Origin: Rhodoferax sp. | Lineage (GTDB): Bacteria; Pseudomonadota; Gammaproteobacteria; Burkholderiales; Burkholderiaceae_C | NCBI RefSeq assembly: GCF_018063565.1 | Contig: NZ_JAGPBB010000046.1 | Coordinates: 1 to 33,512, forward strand | Direction: 5' to 3' | DNA length: 33,512 bases | Translations under genes and position numbers: made by a program | Shown: in pieces, positions 4,755 through 11,309 of the stretch | How the letters are laid out: each line of letters begins with the position of its first letter | Position numbering within the stretch: position 1 is the first letter of the stretch | The notes under the pieces: generated by a model | Told to the model about the DNA's origin: nothing | Seen by the model: only the letters and a program-made list of their open reading frames with translations | Databases searched by the model: none

Positions 4755-5425
4755 GCGCACGCGAAGCGATTCTGGGCCGATTGCGGGCAACGTCGATGCC
4801 GGACCTGCCAGAGTTGCCAGACGTTTCCAGCTGGTACACCGGGCAGGGACGGGGTGAAGACCGGGCGCAGAGAGTGGTCCGCCTGTGTTCGGCCATGCAG
4901 GCGGTGAAAACCGAGATTCACGCGGTCACCGCAGGCAACTGGGTTGATCAGTTGCTGCGGGTGGCTGCGCTCAAAGGGCTGCGGCGGATGCTGATTGGTC
5001 AGGGCACGGCGCACGGCGATGCGCTGGCGGCACAGGCCGGTTCGCAACTGGAGATCATTCGCTATGAGCAGGCCATCGAATCCTGGCGCGATCGGCTGTT
5101 TGATGACGTGGACGCCTCGCTGACCATGGCGCGTGGCGCGATCGCCGAAATTGGCAGCCTGATCGTCTGGCCGACACCGGCTGAACCACGGCTGATGTCG
5201 CTGGTACCGGCCACCCACTTTGTGTTGCTCGACGAAGACACGGTGCACGCCGATTTTTATACCGCCTTGCGGCAGGAGGGCTGGGCGCAGGGCATGCCAA
5301 CCAATGCCTTGCTGATCAGCGGACCGTCCAAGACCGCCGATATTCAGCAAACGCTCGCGTATGGTGCGCATGGCCCTCGCGAACTGGTCGTGCTGCTGCT
5401 AGGTCATACCGGAGGCTACGCATGA
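4751..5425 (+). CDS. lutC: L-lactate utilisation protein LutC (LUD domain)
   Basis: This is a 224-residue LUD-domain (former DUF162) protein, the small subunit of the LutABC lactate-oxidation complex. The N-terminus MSAREAILGRLR is typical of LutC. The central part contains the LUD pattern with ARGAIAEIGSLIVWPTPAEPRLMSLVP, abbreviated here around positions 5131-5211, followed by HFVLLDEDTV. The open frame continues upstream, but the ATG at 4751 overlaps the lutA stop and gives the family-typical start. The gene ends in another ATGA overlap with lutB. The gene order lutA-lutC-lutB differs from the A-B-C order of Bacillus. Confidence 0.88.
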   Translation: MSAREAILGRLRATSMPDLPELPDVSSWYTGQGRGEDRAQRVVRLCSAMQAVKTEIHAVTAGNWVDQLLRVAALKGLRRMLIGQGTAHGDALAAQAGSQLEIIRYEQAIESWRDRLFDDVDASLTMARGAIAEIGSLIVWPTPAEPRLMSLVPATHFVLLDEDTVHADFYTALRQEGWAQGMPTNALLISGPSKTADIQQTLAYGAHGPRELVVLLLGHTGGYA

Positions 5426-6855
5426 GCAAGGTGATTGCCATCAACCCGACACAGGATTTCAAGCAGCGCACGCGCCACGTGCTCAACGATCCGGCGCAGC
5501 GCAAGAATTTTCGTGGTGCCATGGACTTCTTGCAGGCGAAACGACGCACTCAGTTCCCGGATCAGGAGGAGCGCGAGGGTCTGCGTACTCTGGGTGAGCA
5601 GATCCGGCGCTACAGTCTTGCGCACCTGCCGCGCTTGCTGGAGCAACTTGAATCGCGCCTGACGGCCAACGGTGTGCAAGTGCACTGGGCACAAACCCCG
5701 GATGAAGCCAATGCCATTGCACTGGGTATTGCGCAGCGTGTGAATGCCAAACATATCATCAAGGGCAAGTCGATGGTGAGTGAGGAAATTGGCTTCAACC
5801 ACGCCATGGAAGCAGCGGGGATTGAAGCCTTTGAGTCAGACATGGGCGAGTACATCGTGCAGCTGGCCGGCGAGGCACCCTCACACATCATCATGCCGGC
5901 CATTCACAAGACCAAACAGGCGATTGCGCAACTGTTTGCCGAAGAAGTGCCCGGGGTGAGTTACACCGAAGACGTGGACGCACTGATCCAGATTGGCCGA
6001 CGTGTGTTGCGGCGAAAATTTGCCGATGCCGACATTGGTCTCTCAGGTGTCAATGTGGCGGTCGCAGAAACTGGTACCTTGTGTCTGGTGGAGAACGAAG
6101 GCAATGGCCGCATGTGCACCACGGTGCCCAGGGTGCACATTGCCATCACCGGCATCGAGAAAGTGGTCGAGAGACTGGAACATGTGCCGCCTTTGCTGAG
6201 TTTGCTGACCCGCTCGGCCACCGGGCAGCCGGTGACAACCTACGTCAATATGATCAGTGGGCCACGCCAACCGGGCGAGAAGGATGGTCCGCAGGAAGTC
6301 CATCTGATCCTGCTCGATAACGGACGAACCCAGGCCTACGCCGATCCGGGGCTGCGGGCGACGCTGCAATGCATTCGCTGTGGTGCGTGCATGAACCATT
6401 GCCCGGTGTATGCGCGAATTGGTGGTCACGCTTACGGCACCACCTACCCGGGTCCGATTGGTGCCATCGTGTCGCCCCACATGCTGGGTCTGGATGTGAC
6501 CTACCCGCTGGCGTTTGCCTCCACCTTGTGTGGTGCATGCGCCGAGGTGTGCCCGGTCAAGATTCCCATCACCGATATCCTGGTGCGCTTGCGCAATGAG
6601 GCACAGGCCCGACCGGACAGCGACAACGCCAGCCTACGTGGCAGTGGTGCCGCGCGCAGCATGAGTGTTTCAGCGGTCTGGCAGGTCTGGTCGCAGGTTT
6701 ACAGCCGCTTGGGCCTGTACAAACTGGCGTCCTGGTTCATGAGTCGTGGCCGCGCCTTGTCGCCGTCCGAGCAAGGGGCCTGGACACGCAGTCGCACACC
6801 GCTGGTTCCGGCGCCGCGACGATTGCGCGATATGCTCAAGGATCGCAATCCTTAA
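5422..6855 (+). CDS. lutB: L-lactate utilisation iron-sulfur protein LutB
   Basis: LutB is the large subunit of the lactate dehydrogenase complex, with an N-terminal LUD domain followed by a ferredoxin-like segment with two [4Fe-4S] clusters. The LUD part includes GKSMVSEEIGFNHAMEAAG and the AVAETGTLCLVENEGNGRM region. The cluster motifs are CIRCGACMNHCPVY (around base 6370) and CGACAEVCPVKIP (around 6533). The length of 477 residues is normal, and the C-terminal tail matches the LutB/YkgF family. The start overlaps the lutC stop. With LutA and LutC it probably passes lactate electrons to the quinone pool. Confidence 0.93.
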   Translation: MSKVIAINPTQDFKQRTRHVLNDPAQRKNFRGAMDFLQAKRRTQFPDQEEREGLRTLGEQIRRYSLAHLPRLLEQLESRLTANGVQVHWAQTPDEANAIALGIAQRVNAKHIIKGKSMVSEEIGFNHAMEAAGIEAFESDMGEYIVQLAGEAPSHIIMPAIHKTKQAIAQLFAEEVPGVSYTEDVDALIQIGRRVLRRKFADADIGLSGVNVAVAETGTLCLVENEGNGRMCTTVPRVHIAITGIEKVVERLEHVPPLLSLLTRSATGQPVTTYVNMISGPRQPGEKDGPQEVHLILLDNGRTQAYADPGLRATLQCIRCGACMNHCPVYARIGGHAYGTTYPGPIGAIVSPHMLGLDVTYPLAFASTLCGACAEVCPVKIPITDILVRLRNEAQARPDSDNASLRGSGAARSMSVSAVWQVWSQVYSRLGLYKLASWFMSRGRALSPSEQGAWTRSRTPLVPAPRRLRDMLKDRNP

Positions 6856-6881
6856 GAGTTTGTTCTTTACAACTGATTTTT

Positions 6882-7607
6882 ATGACTTCTGTCCTACAAC
6901 TTTCTGAGCAAGCCGGCGTGGTTGAGTCGGCCATCACGTCGCGCATGTCTGCGCGCGCCTATACCGGCCAACCGGTGGCACGGGAAACCCTGGAGCACCT
7001 GCTGGAAGTGGCCAGCCGTTCGCCGTCAGGCACCAACACCCAGCCTTGGAAGGTTTATGTGTTGCAAGGTGCCAGCCGCGATGCGCTGGTTGACAAAGTC
7101 TGTGCCGCCCATGATGCGTTGCGCGCCGACCCTTCACTGGCTGCCCAGTACCGTGAGGAATACGACTATTACCCGGAACAGTGGGTCAGTCCCTATATTG
7201 ACCGGCGCCGCGAAAACGGCTGGAGCCTCTATGGTCTGCTCGGCATCACCAAAACCGACAAGGACAAAATGCACTTGCAGCATCAGAGGAACTACCGTTT
7301 CTTCGATGCACCGGTGGGCCTGATGTTCACCATTGACCGCGTCATGGGGCGTGGTTCATTGCTGGATTACGGCATGTTTCTGCAAAGCCTGATGGTATGT
7401 GCCCGCGCACACGGCCTGCATACCTGCCCGCAGGCCGCCTGGAACGGCTTTTCCAGCATTGTGCTGCCGCACCTGGGTGCCGGTCCGGGCGAAATGTTGG
7501 TGTGTGGCATGGCGCTGGGGTATGCTGATGCCGACGCACTGGTCAATCGCTTTGTCACGCCCCGCGTGCCGGTCAGTTCGTTCACCCATTGGGTCAACCG
7601 GAGTTAA
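6882..7607 (+). CDS. Nitroreductase-family flavoprotein (NfnB/FRase type)
   Basis: This is a 241-residue FMN-dependent reductase of the nitroreductase superfamily, expected to act as a cytoplasmic homodimer using NAD(P)H. The N-terminal pattern SRMSARAYTGQPV and the FMN-contacting RSPSGTNTQPWKVYV are clear, and the C-terminal part includes GLHTCPQAAW. No strong ribosome binding site precedes the ATG at 6882, which lies 27 bases after lutB. The stop overlaps the start region of the roadblock gene (TAATG at 7605-7609), tying it to the downstream signalling operon. The true substrate (nitroaromatic, quinone or enone) cannot be read from the sequence. Confidence 0.88.
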   Translation: MTSVLQLSEQAGVVESAITSRMSARAYTGQPVARETLEHLLEVASRSPSGTNTQPWKVYVLQGASRDALVDKVCAAHDALRADPSLAAQYREEYDYYPEQWVSPYIDRRRENGWSLYGLLGITKTDKDKMHLQHQRNYRFFDAPVGLMFTIDRVMGRGSLLDYGMFLQSLMVCARAHGLHTCPQAAWNGFSSIVLPHLGAGPGEMLVCGMALGYADADALVNRFVTPRVPVSSFTHWVNRS

Positions 7608-7609
7608 TG

Positions 7610-7972
7610 ATGCGCACCGATATGTTTCAGCAGTCGCTTGAAGACTTGAATGGTTCAACGGCCGATATTGAAGCCTGCGCGCTGATCTCGACAGACGGAC
7701 TGATGATTGCATCGGCGCTGCCGCAGGGGATGGACGAGGACCGGATTGGCGCCATGTCGGCGGCCCTGCTGTCGTTGGGCGAGCGGACAGCCCGTGAGCT
7801 CAGTCGCGGCAAGCTGGAGCGGGTGCTGATCCAGGGCGAACGCGGCTACGTGATCATGAGTGCGGCTGGCCCGGAGGCGGTGCTGACGGTGCTGGCCAAG
7901 TCGAACGCCAAACTCGGTCTGATTTTTCTGGACATCAAGCGGGCGGCCGAGTCGCTGTCCAAAATGATTTGA
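7610..7972 (+). CDS. Roadblock/LC7 domain protein (MglB-like)
   Basis: This is a 120-residue single-domain roadblock/LC7 protein. Family members such as MglB dimerise and regulate small Ras-like GTPases or act as scaffolds. The recognisable core runs from IEACALISTDGLMIASALP through the helix with GAMSAALLSLGERTARELSRG to VLTVLAKSNAKLGLIFLDIKRA. ATG codons at 7607 and 7610 are both in frame. The second has GGAG six bases upstream and is preferred. No MglA-type GTPase is encoded in the window, which is unusual for an MglB-like protein and raises the possibility of another partner. It is the first of six closely spaced genes. Confidence 0.88.
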   Translation: MRTDMFQQSLEDLNGSTADIEACALISTDGLMIASALPQGMDEDRIGAMSAALLSLGERTARELSRGKLERVLIQGERGYVIMSAAGPEAVLTVLAKSNAKLGLIFLDIKRAAESLSKMI

Positions 7973-7983
7973 CGAGGTGCAGC

Positions 7984-8481
7984 GTGACACTGTGCGACAT
8001 GTCCGAACCCGCAGCCCCATCGACCTGCTGTGAACTCAACTATTGCGATGGTAGTCAGCGCAAGGTCTACACGACCGACCTCGAGGTGATGTTTCCCTTG
8101 GGGCACCTGATTGTTTCGCGCACCGATCTGGCGGGCATCATCACCCACGCCAACGATGCGTTTGTCGAGATGAGCGGCTACACCCGTGACGAGCTTTTGG
8201 GTGCACCGCACCATATCCTGCGGCACCCCGACATGCCCAAGCTCGCGTTCAAAGGCTTGTGGGACGACATTTCGGCCGGGAAAAAATGGCATGGTTACGT
8301 CAAGAATCTGCGCAAGGATGGCGCCTTTTATTGGGTCTATGCCACCGCCGTTCCCAACATTCGTGAGGGTGTCATCGTGGGTTACACCTCGGTGCGGCGC
8401 AAACCGTCTCGTACCAAGGTCAACGGCCTGATTCCGCTGTATCGGCAATGGCTGGAACAGGAAAAGGCGGCACCAAGATGA
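7984..8481 (+). CDS. Stand-alone Aer-type PAS domain protein
   Basis: This is a 165-residue PAS protein closely resembling the FAD-binding sensor domain of the aerotaxis receptor Aer. It has THANDAFVEMSGY, then RHPDMP (Arg80, His81, Asp83) and Trp93, residues whose Aer counterparts are associated with FAD binding, then the NLRKDGAFYWVYATAVP strand. Unlike Aer it has no HAMP, membrane or methyl-accepting signalling domain, and nothing follows the PAS fold but a short tail. The GTG at 7984 follows GAGGTG, and an ATG at 7999 is an alternative. The stop overlaps the next start (ATGA). I infer a soluble redox or oxygen sensor acting through protein contacts with its operon partners. Confidence 0.87.
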   Translation: MTLCDMSEPAAPSTCCELNYCDGSQRKVYTTDLEVMFPLGHLIVSRTDLAGIITHANDAFVEMSGYTRDELLGAPHHILRHPDMPKLAFKGLWDDISAGKKWHGYVKNLRKDGAFYWVYATAVPNIREGVIVGYTSVRRKPSRTKVNGLIPLYRQWLEQEKAAPR

Positions 8482-9224
8482 TGAACTTCCTGATAGCGCC
8501 GGATTTTTCACCCGAACACTTTGCCAGCTGGCACTTGCTCAATACGGTGGTGCAACGGCGATCGGGCGTCCATCTGCATTTGTTGACACCGACCAGTGCG
8601 CAGGAACAGGCGGAACTGCTGGCCGCGGGCCAGGCCGATATGGTGTACGCCAACCCCTTTGACGCATCCGACCTGATCCGTACCCGAGGCTATGTGCCCT
8701 TGGCGCGGCCGGTGCAGCGGTTTGACGAAATGGTCATCGCCACCGCTGCGCAATCCGGACTGAAAGCGCTGGAGTCCCTGCAACCTGGATGCCGGATTGC
8801 CGTCACTGAAAATCGGGATGTGCGTCTGATCGGCCTTCGCTTGCTGGAGCCTGCCGATCTCGACGAGTCGCTGATTGCGTGGGTCCCGGTGGATAGTTAC
8901 CAGGCGGTGGCCCGTAAGGTGATCAAAGGTGAGGTGGACGCGGGGTTTTTTCTGGCCGATGCGTTTGCGTCATTGACCCGTTTGACGCGCAGTCAGATGC
9001 AAGTTCTGGTGGAAAGCGCCATTCACGATATTTCACACGTTTTATTGGCTCTACCTCAATCTGGTATTGATTTTGAAGCTATTAAAAAAGTATTTTGTGA
9101 GATGGGTCAAATGACTGGAGACCAGGACTTGCTGCTGTCATTGGGATTGCCGCACGGCTTTGAACCGATGACGCAGGAGCAGGCTGAATTCATGATTGAC
9201 CTCATGGAAACCTTGCTCGATTGA
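8478..9224 (+). CDS. PhnD-like periplasmic-binding-protein fold, no signal peptide
   Basis: The 248-residue product has the two-lobed binding-protein pattern of the phosphate/phosphonate (PhnD-like) family. After the first strand come LLTPTSAQEQAELLAAGQAD, MVYANPFDASDL, then GCRIAVTENRDVRLIGLRLL and a hinge-crossing VARKVIKGEVDAGFFLADAF. The start MMNFLIAPDF leads straight into the first beta strand, so there is no export signal and the protein should stay in the cytoplasm. The nearest operon genes are signalling proteins rather than an ABC permease. It may bind a small cytoplasmic ligand and report it. An AT-rich patch at about 9028-9110 differs from the GC-rich surroundings but keeps the frame. 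Confidence 0.78.
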   Translation: MMNFLIAPDFSPEHFASWHLLNTVVQRRSGVHLHLLTPTSAQEQAELLAAGQADMVYANPFDASDLIRTRGYVPLARPVQRFDEMVIATAAQSGLKALESLQPGCRIAVTENRDVRLIGLRLLEPADLDESLIAWVPVDSYQAVARKVIKGEVDAGFFLADAFASLTRLTRSQMQVLVESAIHDISHVLLALPQSGIDFEAIKKVFCEMGQMTGDQDLLLSLGLPHGFEPMTQEQAEFMIDLMETLLD

Positions 9225-9235
9225 GGGTTTGGCCG

Positions 9236-9817
9236 ATGTTCAACCCGCCGCTACCCGACGTGCAGCGCCACGCCTTCAGAGCCCACACCCGGCGTATGTT
9301 GCATGCACAGCGCGACACTGCACGCCATGCGGCGCGTGTTGAGGCGGCGCTGGCACTGCCCGGCGCCGAGCCGGTCCAGGGTGCGCTGGCAGATCTGTTC
9401 TGTGTTTTTGGTTCGGCGCATGCTGACTGCAAGCGCCAGGCCCTCAGCATGGCACAAAGCCGATTGGCAGCGCATGTTGTCAACTGGTTTGCTTCGCAAG
9501 TGGAGGCGCCGGCCTTGCCAGTTGTTTCGGCACTGGCGACACGCTGGAGTGTGCTCGCGGTCGTATCGGCGAACATTTCGACGCGGGCGCGCCGCTGCAG
9601 TGCGGACGATTCCCGCGTCCTGGCCGTCCAGGTGGTGGAAGCGTTCAAGTCTGCGGACCAGCAAGCCCAGCAGACTTTTTTTCACCATTGTTTGACCTGC
9701 CACGACAACCTGGCATTCATGCTGGCCCGGCGTCAGTTGCTCAAGCTGGCAGACACTTTGCCACCGGCGTGGGAGGCGGTCAGTTGTCAGCTTGAGTCGG
9801 CACGGGTGGGCTCATGA
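9236..9817 (+). CDS. Uncharacterised helical protein of the roadblock operon
   Basis: I do not recognise this 193-residue protein. It appears nearly all alpha-helical, rich in Ala, Arg and Gln, with no signal peptide or membrane segment. The ATG at 9236 has GAGGG eight bases upstream, which supports it over the TTG at 9221. The gene starts 11 bases after the binding-protein gene and overlaps the next gene by ATGA, so it is firmly part of the operon. A CLTCH sequence at residues 152-156 resembles a heme c site, but the protein has no export signal. A scaffold or adaptor role is possible but only guessed from context. Confidence 0.7.
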   Translation: MFNPPLPDVQRHAFRAHTRRMLHAQRDTARHAARVEAALALPGAEPVQGALADLFCVFGSAHADCKRQALSMAQSRLAAHVVNWFASQVEAPALPVVSALATRWSVLAVVSANISTRARRCSADDSRVLAVQVVEAFKSADQQAQQTFFHHCLTCHDNLAFMLARRQLLKLADTLPPAWEAVSCQLESARVGS

Positions 9818-10695
9818 AGGTGTATCTGGTGGGCATGGTCAGTCGCGACCAGGCAGCGTTCGACCTGTTTATGAAGCGACATTTTCCTGACTGGCGCTGG
9901 CAGGCGGTGGACGCTGCATCGGAGCGGGTGCCAGCGGTTGCGGCGGGCTCAATTTGCTTGCTTGATCTGGCCGCAATGGGCATGGCACGCCATTCGATCG
10001 CGGCACAGACGCAGTTGCTGGCCTGGGTCGGGGGCCAGCCGGCGGTATTACTGCTGTCCAGGCACGATGTATCGTGGCAGGCTGCCTGTCAGGCACTTGA
10101 ACCGCAACCCTGGCAGTGGCTGGGCAAGCCGTACAACGCCGAGTCCATGCGTGCCGCCTTGGAGCTTGCCGCACGCCTGATCCAAACGCCCGCTGTGACA
10201 CAACAGCCGATTCCCACGACGCCAGCAGGGGGCAAGATCAGTCCCGAAGTGAACCCGCTGCCATTGTCCGTCGCCCCGCCGCCCGCTGTGGTCATTACTG
10301 CCGCGTCGGACACTGCTGCGCCAGGTTTGGATGTCGAAGAGTTGGCGCAACGGCTGGCGGCGAGCCCGCTTGACCGATTCGTGTTGTTGCGCAAGATGCT
10401 CGTTGGCCTGCAGCAGTCACAGGCGTTCGAACTGCGGTTTACCGTGCAGCATCTCTTGCTGGTGCATCCGCTACATGCCTGGGTGGCTGGCAACATGCCA
10501 TTGTCGGTGGTGCAACGGGTGTGCACCAGTGATGCGTTGGCCCGTTCGATCACATTGAAAATCATGACTCCCGCTGAAGCCGAGCAACGGGTGCTGCAAC
10601 TCGGTCTGGCTCCACAGGAGCTCGGCATTTTTCTGCTGGCGCTGGCCGATGCGGTGCTGCCCCAGGTGTCCAACTCAAGCACAATGGCGACATGA
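9814..10695 (+). CDS. Degenerate receiver-like protein with C-terminal helical domain
   Basis: The 293-residue product begins with a response-regulator-like fold of about 125 residues: strand KVYLVGM, CLLDLA with Asp51, LLLS with Ser82, and GKPY with Lys105-Pro106 before a helix. The acidic pair normally found after strand 1 is missing, so phosphorylation is doubtful and it may be a pseudo-receiver. A Pro/Ala-rich linker (about residues 125-170) leads to a helical C-terminal domain of about 120 residues that I do not recognise. It contains no clear DNA-binding or enzymatic output. The start and stop both overlap neighbours by ATGA, indicating coupled production with the flanking proteins. Confidence 0.7.
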   Translation: MKVYLVGMVSRDQAAFDLFMKRHFPDWRWQAVDAASERVPAVAAGSICLLDLAAMGMARHSIAAQTQLLAWVGGQPAVLLLSRHDVSWQAACQALEPQPWQWLGKPYNAESMRAALELAARLIQTPAVTQQPIPTTPAGGKISPEVNPLPLSVAPPPAVVITAASDTAAPGLDVEELAQRLAASPLDRFVLLRKMLVGLQQSQAFELRFTVQHLLLVHPLHAWVAGNMPLSVVQRVCTSDALARSITLKIMTPAEAEQRVLQLGLAPQELGIFLLALADAVLPQVSNSSTMAT

Positions 10696-11309
10696 CGACA
10701 AGCAAAAATGCATGGTTCACACTGACGCCCGCCGGGGCGATCCGTGCCTTTGGTCAGGTCGAGCCAGATCGGGTGGCACAGCAGTTGCAGGTGTTGCTGA
10801 GCGGTGAGCATACGCTCGATCTGACCCGCTGGACTGAACTCAGCGATGTGGATGATGCCGATGTAGCCCGCCACGAGGCCAGCGCCTGGGTGCAGCGTTT
10901 GCCGCGCCCGTTGCAGGGGCCGGATGCCAAGCTGGACGATTTTCTGCAGTTTGTGATTGCCGGGCTGTCTGCGGAGCGCCGTGTGGTTCTGGCCTCAGAC
11001 AGCGGCTTTTGTCTGGGGCGTGCTGGATTCGAGCAAGACGAAGCCGATGTGCTCAGTGCGGCCGCTGCCGACTATGGTGCGTTTGCCGAGCGCCAGGCCC
11101 GCCGAGGGTGGGGTGGGGCGGGTGCCTATGTGGCATTTCACGCCGATCCGCACTTTCTGCTGCCGACGTTTGCCTTTGTACCCTTATGGGTGGATGGCAC
11201 CGGTTACTGGTTGATCATGGCCGGAGAGCCCTTGCTCAACTGCCCGGCGCTGGTGGAGCTGCTGTGGGGTCTGAAAGTGGCCGGTACCCGGTTTGCCGCG
11301 GGATCCTGA
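10692..11309 (+). CDS. Second, divergent roadblock-like protein
   Basis: This is a 205-residue protein. Its C-terminal half resembles a roadblock/LC7 fold: the strand RRVVLASDSGFCLGRAGF, the helix DEADVLSAAAADYGAF, and final strands with YWLIMAGEPLL and the closing helix PALVELLWGLKVAG. The N-terminal part of about 75 residues is an extension without a recognised domain. The resemblance is by pattern only and weaker than for the 7610 gene. It is the last gene of the coupled set and stops 22 bases from the convergent bamC stop. A heterotypic pair of roadblock proteins bracketing sensor modules suggests a complex, which is an inference. Confidence 0.6.
   Translation: MTTSKNAWFTLTPAGAIRAFGQVEPDRVAQQLQVLLSGEHTLDLTRWTELSDVDDADVARHEASAWVQRLPRPLQGPDAKLDDFLQFVIAGLSAERRVVLASDSGFCLGRAGFEQDEADVLSAAAADYGAFAERQARRGWGGAGAYVAFHADPHFLLPTFAFVPLWVDGTGYWLIMAGEPLLNCPALVELLWGLKVAGTRFAAGS

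Follow-up and report, generated by a model that had tools for sequence, protein, structure and literature searches.

GTPases are the partners for which roadblock proteins are best known. In outline, the polarity module of M. xanthus (MglA, MglB, MglC and RomR) joins a Ras-like GTPase to two different roadblocks and a receiver protein with a linker; we know of no sensor cassette in it. The conservons of Actinomycetota (CvnA-D) likewise combine a roadblock and a GTPase of related type with an input protein, the histidine-kinase-like CvnA. Closest of all are the Group 3 MglA systems, which the available parts of a 2014 report (Wuichet and Sogaard-Andersen, PMC4316618) describe as nearly exclusive to beta- and gammaproteobacteria, with MglA adjoining one or two MglB homologues and a protein built of receiver, linker and winged helix-turn-helix (wHTH). 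The subject here is a six-gene operon at 7607-11309 of a stretch of DNA from Rhodoferax sp. (33,512 nucleotides, contig NZ_JAGPBB010000046.1; hereafter the window), whose genes we call A to F. With measured confidence, we favor the view that this operon is a GTPase-less descendant of a Group 3 MglA/MglB system, in which detached sensors feed a roadblock platform. The genes, all intact in the window, are as follows.

7610..7972, plus strand: A, MglB-type roadblock/LC7 protein of 120 aa (Pfam, PDB profile, start shared with relatives)
7999..8481, plus strand: B, free-standing PAS protein of Aer type, about 160 residues long (phmmer, Pfam; alternative start GTG 7984)
8481..9224, plus strand: C, PhnD-fold binding protein (Pfam; an ATG also at 8478 gives an ATGA overlap)
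9236..9817, plus strand: D, all-helical protein, possibly a tetratricopeptide repeat (TPR)-like adaptor (AlphaFold2; without a Pfam match)
9814..10695, plus strand: E, degenerate receiver, linker and middle domain (profile match; lacks the C-terminal domain of GTPase-bearing relatives)
10692..11309, plus strand: F, second roadblock protein, extended at its N-terminus by about 77 residues (predicted fold)

Searching 84,980 species genomes with C, we recovered 71 loci, in which partner genes were sought by profiles. A, B and C occur jointly in 63 of them, and the single genes in 63 (A), 70 (B), 59 (D), 59 (F) and 40 (E). The six-gene set is co-conserved well beyond the window's family and far above chance, recurring in Burkholderiales, Lysobacteraceae, Moraxellaceae and other gammaproteobacteria; the window itself groups within the Comamonadaceae loci on the tree. 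An earlier note, made from the window alone, had proposed that the six genes form a set and had named a neighborhood search as the test; that search found them together, and the purifying selection described below, which acts on all six, agrees with the proposal. Loci of the beta and Moraxella types run A-B-C-D-E-GTPase-F, whereas those of the other gammas mostly run D-E-GTPase-F-A-B-C. In seven loci of Neisseriaceae type no A adjoins B-C, and L047 is cut by the edge of its contig at the start; E-GTPase-F-A lies elsewhere in the four genomes of this type that were checked (L028, L030, L044, L051). Viewed from A, the A-type roadblock is found in 60 of 369 genomes at 1e-10 in a sample of Gammaproteobacteria (GTDB sense). 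When C was sought elsewhere in 22 genomes with A but no adjoining C, 17 gave no match, two a weak one (46 bits) and three a match at 170-197 bits, with three further genomes carrying C beside A as positive controls. E was rejected as a marker for such genome scans: it diverges too fast, and of 300 genomes of the window's order three gave matches, two of them marginal. Lampropedia hyalina has three C loci (L027, L050, L056), one with a truncated A. The actinobacterium Tessaracoccus has A-B-C alone (L070, 7133-8747) in a genome without a GTPase of the family, possibly by horizontal transfer.

At 32 of the 71 loci a seventh gene encodes a small GTPase with Ras-like fold matches and an invariant DAR at positions 154-156, a motif reported as unusual in the G5 region of MglA Groups 2 and 3 (PMC4316618, as far as its available text goes). 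E, this GTPase and the roadblocks together match the Group 3 MglA neighborhood of that report: the relatives share with it the DAR-G5 GTPase, the receiver-linker-C-terminal-domain protein, one or two roadblocks and the same taxa. The earlier note knew of no described system of this composition; in part it is described, a receiver-like protein with MglA and MglB homologues being the Group 3 neighborhood. For the gene set as found here, we found no paper in the open-access literature, subscription papers lying outside the search, and the main text of PMC4316618 uses none of the words PAS, phosphonate, sensor or oxygen. The window has the beta/gammaproteobacterial host, MglB-type roadblocks (A by Pfam, F by fold) and the receiver-like part of E; it differs in lacking the C-terminal region of E and the GTPase. 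We place its operon as a probable descendant, and not a strict member, of Group 3, since the defining GTPase was searched for and not found. Because 32 of the 71 related loci carry one, its absence appears to be a derived state in the window lineage, and on this point the earlier reading needs amending.

The distribution of the GTPase supports this view of loss. In the gammaproteobacterial sample a GTPase of the family is present in 63 of 369 genomes at 1e-20, and 34 of the 40 genomes in which A scores at least 160 bits have a match (hand count; two are weak, G396 and G630). A profile search of 32 genomes matched 17; at an E value of 1e-3 it found no GTPase in the window genome or in those of L005, L006, L008, L009, L010, L025, L054, L057 and L058, which are nine of nine sisters of the window in its clade other than L007, and none in the genomes of L017, L021, L026, L043 and L070. 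The C-terminal domain of E follows the same pattern, being present at 29 of 31 loci with the GTPase vs one of ten without it (41 E-bearing loci, window included; Fisher 1.5e-6, uncorrected for kinship), and its score in the window E is 0. One of the two GTPase-bearing exceptions, L012, has E split across two reading frames, as B is in L053; neither was mended for the analysis. Within the window clade L007 keeps the GTPase and its E is already without the C-terminal domain, which hints that the domain was lost first. Six label changes were counted on the tree at the locus level, by a quick method that flagged long branches; one of the six, L051, represents relocation, not loss. In L137 (6033-7622) and L138 (9344-10846, minus strand) a Ser/Thr protein kinase domain precedes the GTPase in one fused protein, and L152 has a GTPase open reading frame of similar length to these fusions. 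Several genomes (L109-L117) carry a second, remoter group of GTPase paralogues, which scores about 145-207 bits and is accompanied by a roadblock of its own.

If the GTPase has gone, the operon might be a decaying remnant whose other genes are on their way out as well. The loss of both the GTPase and the E domain would fit such decay, as would the absence of any E from L006 and the rate of E, the fastest gene. Median pairwise ratios of nonsynonymous to synonymous substitution (dN/dS), computed for ten clade members and L007 (ten sequences for E) with synonymous sites near saturation, are 0.03 for A, 0.15 for B, 0.13 for C, 0.25 for D, 0.36 for E and 0.17 for F. These values are well below 1, and all six genes are under purifying selection in the clade. 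Moreover, measured against C, A evolves at a rate of 0.15 in the window clade and 0.28 in Psychrobacter, which lacks the GTPase; three groups that carry it give 0.30-0.46. Two of the three GTPase-less groups thus show no relaxation of A, although in Lysobacteraceae the value is 0.62. As the six genes are also intact in the window and conserved in ten genomes, and Psychrobacter and Lysobacteraceae also maintain sets of this kind without the GTPase, we consider decay very unlikely.

Alternatively, the roadblocks may act on another, unrelated NTPase, so that the system would not truly be GTPase-free. Roadblocks as a rule bind NTPases, according to the available text of PMC4316618, and among the relatives are a fusion of a roadblock to an AAA/STAND-type ATPase (L146) and the kinase-GTPase fusions of L137 and L138. 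However, no other NTPase is conserved in the window-clade operon, the genome-wide search having covered relatives of this GTPase family. We regard this alternative as doubtful, if credible enough to keep in view.

The identities of A, E and F bear directly on the comparison with MglA/MglB systems. A matches Pfam Robl_LC7 (1.4e-18), and its profile matches PDB roadblocks 7f8m (1.8e-33) and 9jue (6.6e-28). It is also the most conserved protein, with 62-93% identity to the window in 25 of 27 aligned relatives and 42% in the other two. F gives noise-level matches in Pfam (E value above 0.05), and profile comparison with A did not recover a roadblock kinship, so its fold was predicted instead; the model has the alpha-beta-beta-alpha-beta-beta-beta-alpha order of roadblock/LC7 proteins, and by this predicted fold F is a second roadblock. 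E has noise-level Pfam matches (E above 0.05) and a weak profile match to the receiver of RpfC (2.8e-5). It keeps the beta-3 Asp (LLDLA) and a Lys-Pro (GKPY), and the acidic pair of beta-1 is missing. These results agree with the two roadblock proteins and the degenerate receiver of the earlier note. For the M. xanthus module, the likeness amounts to a weak match of A to MglB (6h5b, 1.1e-3), the roadblock fold of F and the weak receiver match of E; the window also lacks the GTPase, and the resemblance is one of working outline. A 534-residue protein at L146 (7468-9072) has an AAA/STAND-type ATPase domain and a roadblock domain at its end.

D has no Pfam match and no PDB match better than 0.4. 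AlphaFold2 models it as ten helices (predicted local distance difference test, pLDDT, 94.6), with structural matches of which the best are partial and of uncertain meaning. Long proteins take the place of D beside E in L135, L139, L149 and L150, with weak BLAST matches to D (best E 6e-9). Those matches suggested a link to TPR or FimV-like proteins, which we do not claim.

B and C are the candidate sensors. B resembles the PAS domain of the E. coli aerotaxis receptor Aer (8dik) over residues 37-148 (4.6e-36, phmmer), as the earlier note had recognized; in Pfam PAS families alone match (PAS_3, 3.9e-15). By homology it is probably a PAS domain of the flavin adenine dinucleotide (FAD) type. Unlike Aer, B stops after the PAS domain and is not fused to a chemoreceptor signaling module. 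C matches Phosphonate-bd (2.1e-38). Its N-terminus reads MNFLIAPDF, relatives begin at the same place without a leader, and no export signal was seen in window or relatives (by inspection; no predictor was run). The operon holds no transporter gene beside C, and the family of C agrees with the PhnD fold named in the earlier note. The C profile matched no PDB chain at 1e-4, so the ligand cannot be inferred.

That B and C are inputs to A is indicated most strongly by a wider sample of 40 stretches fetched around A matches, in which unrelated sensor folds swap at one place. Twenty of the 40 carry a recognized sensor: 12 have B-C, and eight more have another sensor family. A protoglobin-family gene is present in five (L118, L124, L130, L132, L136), one alongside B-C, with two calls by Pfam (8.7e-26, 3.9e-23) and the others by BLAST cluster. 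CZB genes occur in two (L126, Pfam 1.4e-12; L151, by cluster), as do FIST genes (L138, by Pfam; L152, by cluster and a NosP score of 117 bits, below cut-off). In L121 an additional PhnD-like gene separates F from A, and the genome is without the GTPase. That other stand-alone sensors hold the slot of B-C in relatives supports the earlier proposal that the sensors serve the roadblock. A natural globin-roadblock fusion, HGbRL of Methylacidiphilum infernorum, also couples a gas-sensing domain to a roadblock; by the available account (PMC4476040), it differs in being a single fused protein with another globin type and no PAS or PhnD partner. In conservons the input is CvnA; here it would be free soluble sensors, with no kinase family among the six proteins.

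We propose that the full ancestral form was D-E-GTPase-F-A joined to a sensor cassette, which in the window is B-C. The roadblock platform would consist of A and F. Exchangeable soluble sensors would inform it of redox, gas or ligand state, and B (by homology FAD-type) and C (a small-ligand fold) would be such free sensors, read by that platform in place of a kinase. Ancestrally the platform may have set the nucleotide state of the GTPase, with E and D relaying the signal, most likely to type IV pili or pole choice. The gene content, its co-conservation, the pattern of loss, the folds and the exchange of sensors are observed; sensor-roadblock binding, ligands, the direction of the signal and a pilus output are what we infer. 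It is tempting to speculate further, and we do so tentatively, that interchangeable free sensors of the cytosol (FAD-PAS, PhnD fold, protoglobin, CZB, FIST) dock on a pair of roadblocks instead of on a kinase or chemoreceptor, and that at least in the window clade this works with no GTPase, the roadblocks themselves then integrating the signals.

The neighbors of A offer some clues to the output. In L118 pilB (873 bits, cut-off 675.65) lies on the same strand 240 bases past the protoglobin gene, followed on that strand by PilC/GspF-family and type IV leader peptidase genes. In L119 and L122 the operon includes a FimV/HubP-type protein (FimV_Cterm above cut-off, FimV_core below). PilB exceeds its cut-off in 36 of the 40 strong-A genomes vs 216 of 329 others (252 of 369 overall; Fisher p 0.001, hand-counted and uncorrected for kinship). 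PilB is also present in the window genome. A laxer PilB threshold was discarded as nearly uninformative (342 of 369 genomes). In Snodgrassella, whose mgl genes belong to Group 3, mutation of an orphan MglB alters soft-agar colony spreading and colonization, according to the available text of PMC11112851. Together these observations favor, and do not prove, control of type IV pili or of the pole as the output.

Transcription is the other candidate, E then being a response-regulator-like DNA binder tuned by the GTPase. The wHTH fold predicted for the C-terminal region of such proteins, as given in the available text of PMC4316618, suggests as much; yet the window clade retains E without that domain, and loci of Psychrobacter and Lysobacteraceae retain A-B-C-D-F without any E. 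Many E proteins, moreover, end in an amphipathic-looking tail (by inspection only) that would fit binding to a membrane or a partner. We judge a transcriptional output unlikely.

Several observations weigh against descent from a Group 3 system with sensor input and pilus output. The window genome is 92.8% complete; L014 has the C-terminal domain of E without a GTPase at the locus, and L007 has the reverse. Half of the A stretches (20 of 40) have no recognized sensor adjoining A. The pilus link consists of one pilB neighbor, two FimV-like neighbors and a weak genome-level excess of PilB; four of the 40 strong-A genomes have no PilB above cut-off, and no pilus gene was identified in the window's own surroundings. 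Finally, owing to the wHTH, gene regulation is the output proposed in PMC4316618, in its available text.

The layout of the window operon is largely as the earlier note had it. ATGA overlaps at 8478, 9814 and 10692 are read directly in the sequence, and the TAATG contact is there, the TAA of a nitroreductase gene (7605-7607) abutting the ATG at 7607. Of the two 11-base gaps that had been listed, the one between C and D (9225-9235) stands. In relatives B starts close to the in-frame ATG 7999, which makes 26 bases the probable distance between A and B; it is 11 only if GTG 7984 is used. Relatives of A open with MRTD or alike, making 7610 the likely start and 7607 a possible one. Pfam searches at E values up to 1 found no kinase, GTPase, methyl-accepting chemotaxis protein, GGDEF, DNA-binding or transporter-membrane family among the six proteins, in line with the earlier list of absent histidine kinases, chemotaxis proteins, GTPases, diguanylate cyclases, DNA-binding domains and transporters. 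Directly upstream (5422-7607) lie a lutB-like gene and then the nitroreductase gene; both are found in L057, and the nitroreductase in L006. The nitroreductase was dropped as a member of the system, a relative being present in two of 71 loci (L006, L057).

In summary, the earlier note is partly supported: the system it described is real and the parts were well identified, yet the version it had before it is a derived one. Full systems and GTPase-less versions form a natural series in culturable bacteria, and for the sensors there are plausible ligands open to testing (flavin, haem, zinc, small anions). The series opens the questions of what Group 3 MglA systems sense, how sensors and roadblocks talk without a kinase, and whether roadblocks can signal without a GTPase. 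Moreover, it would provide a context for the orphan MglB of bee-gut Snodgrassella, if that orphan belongs to the set.

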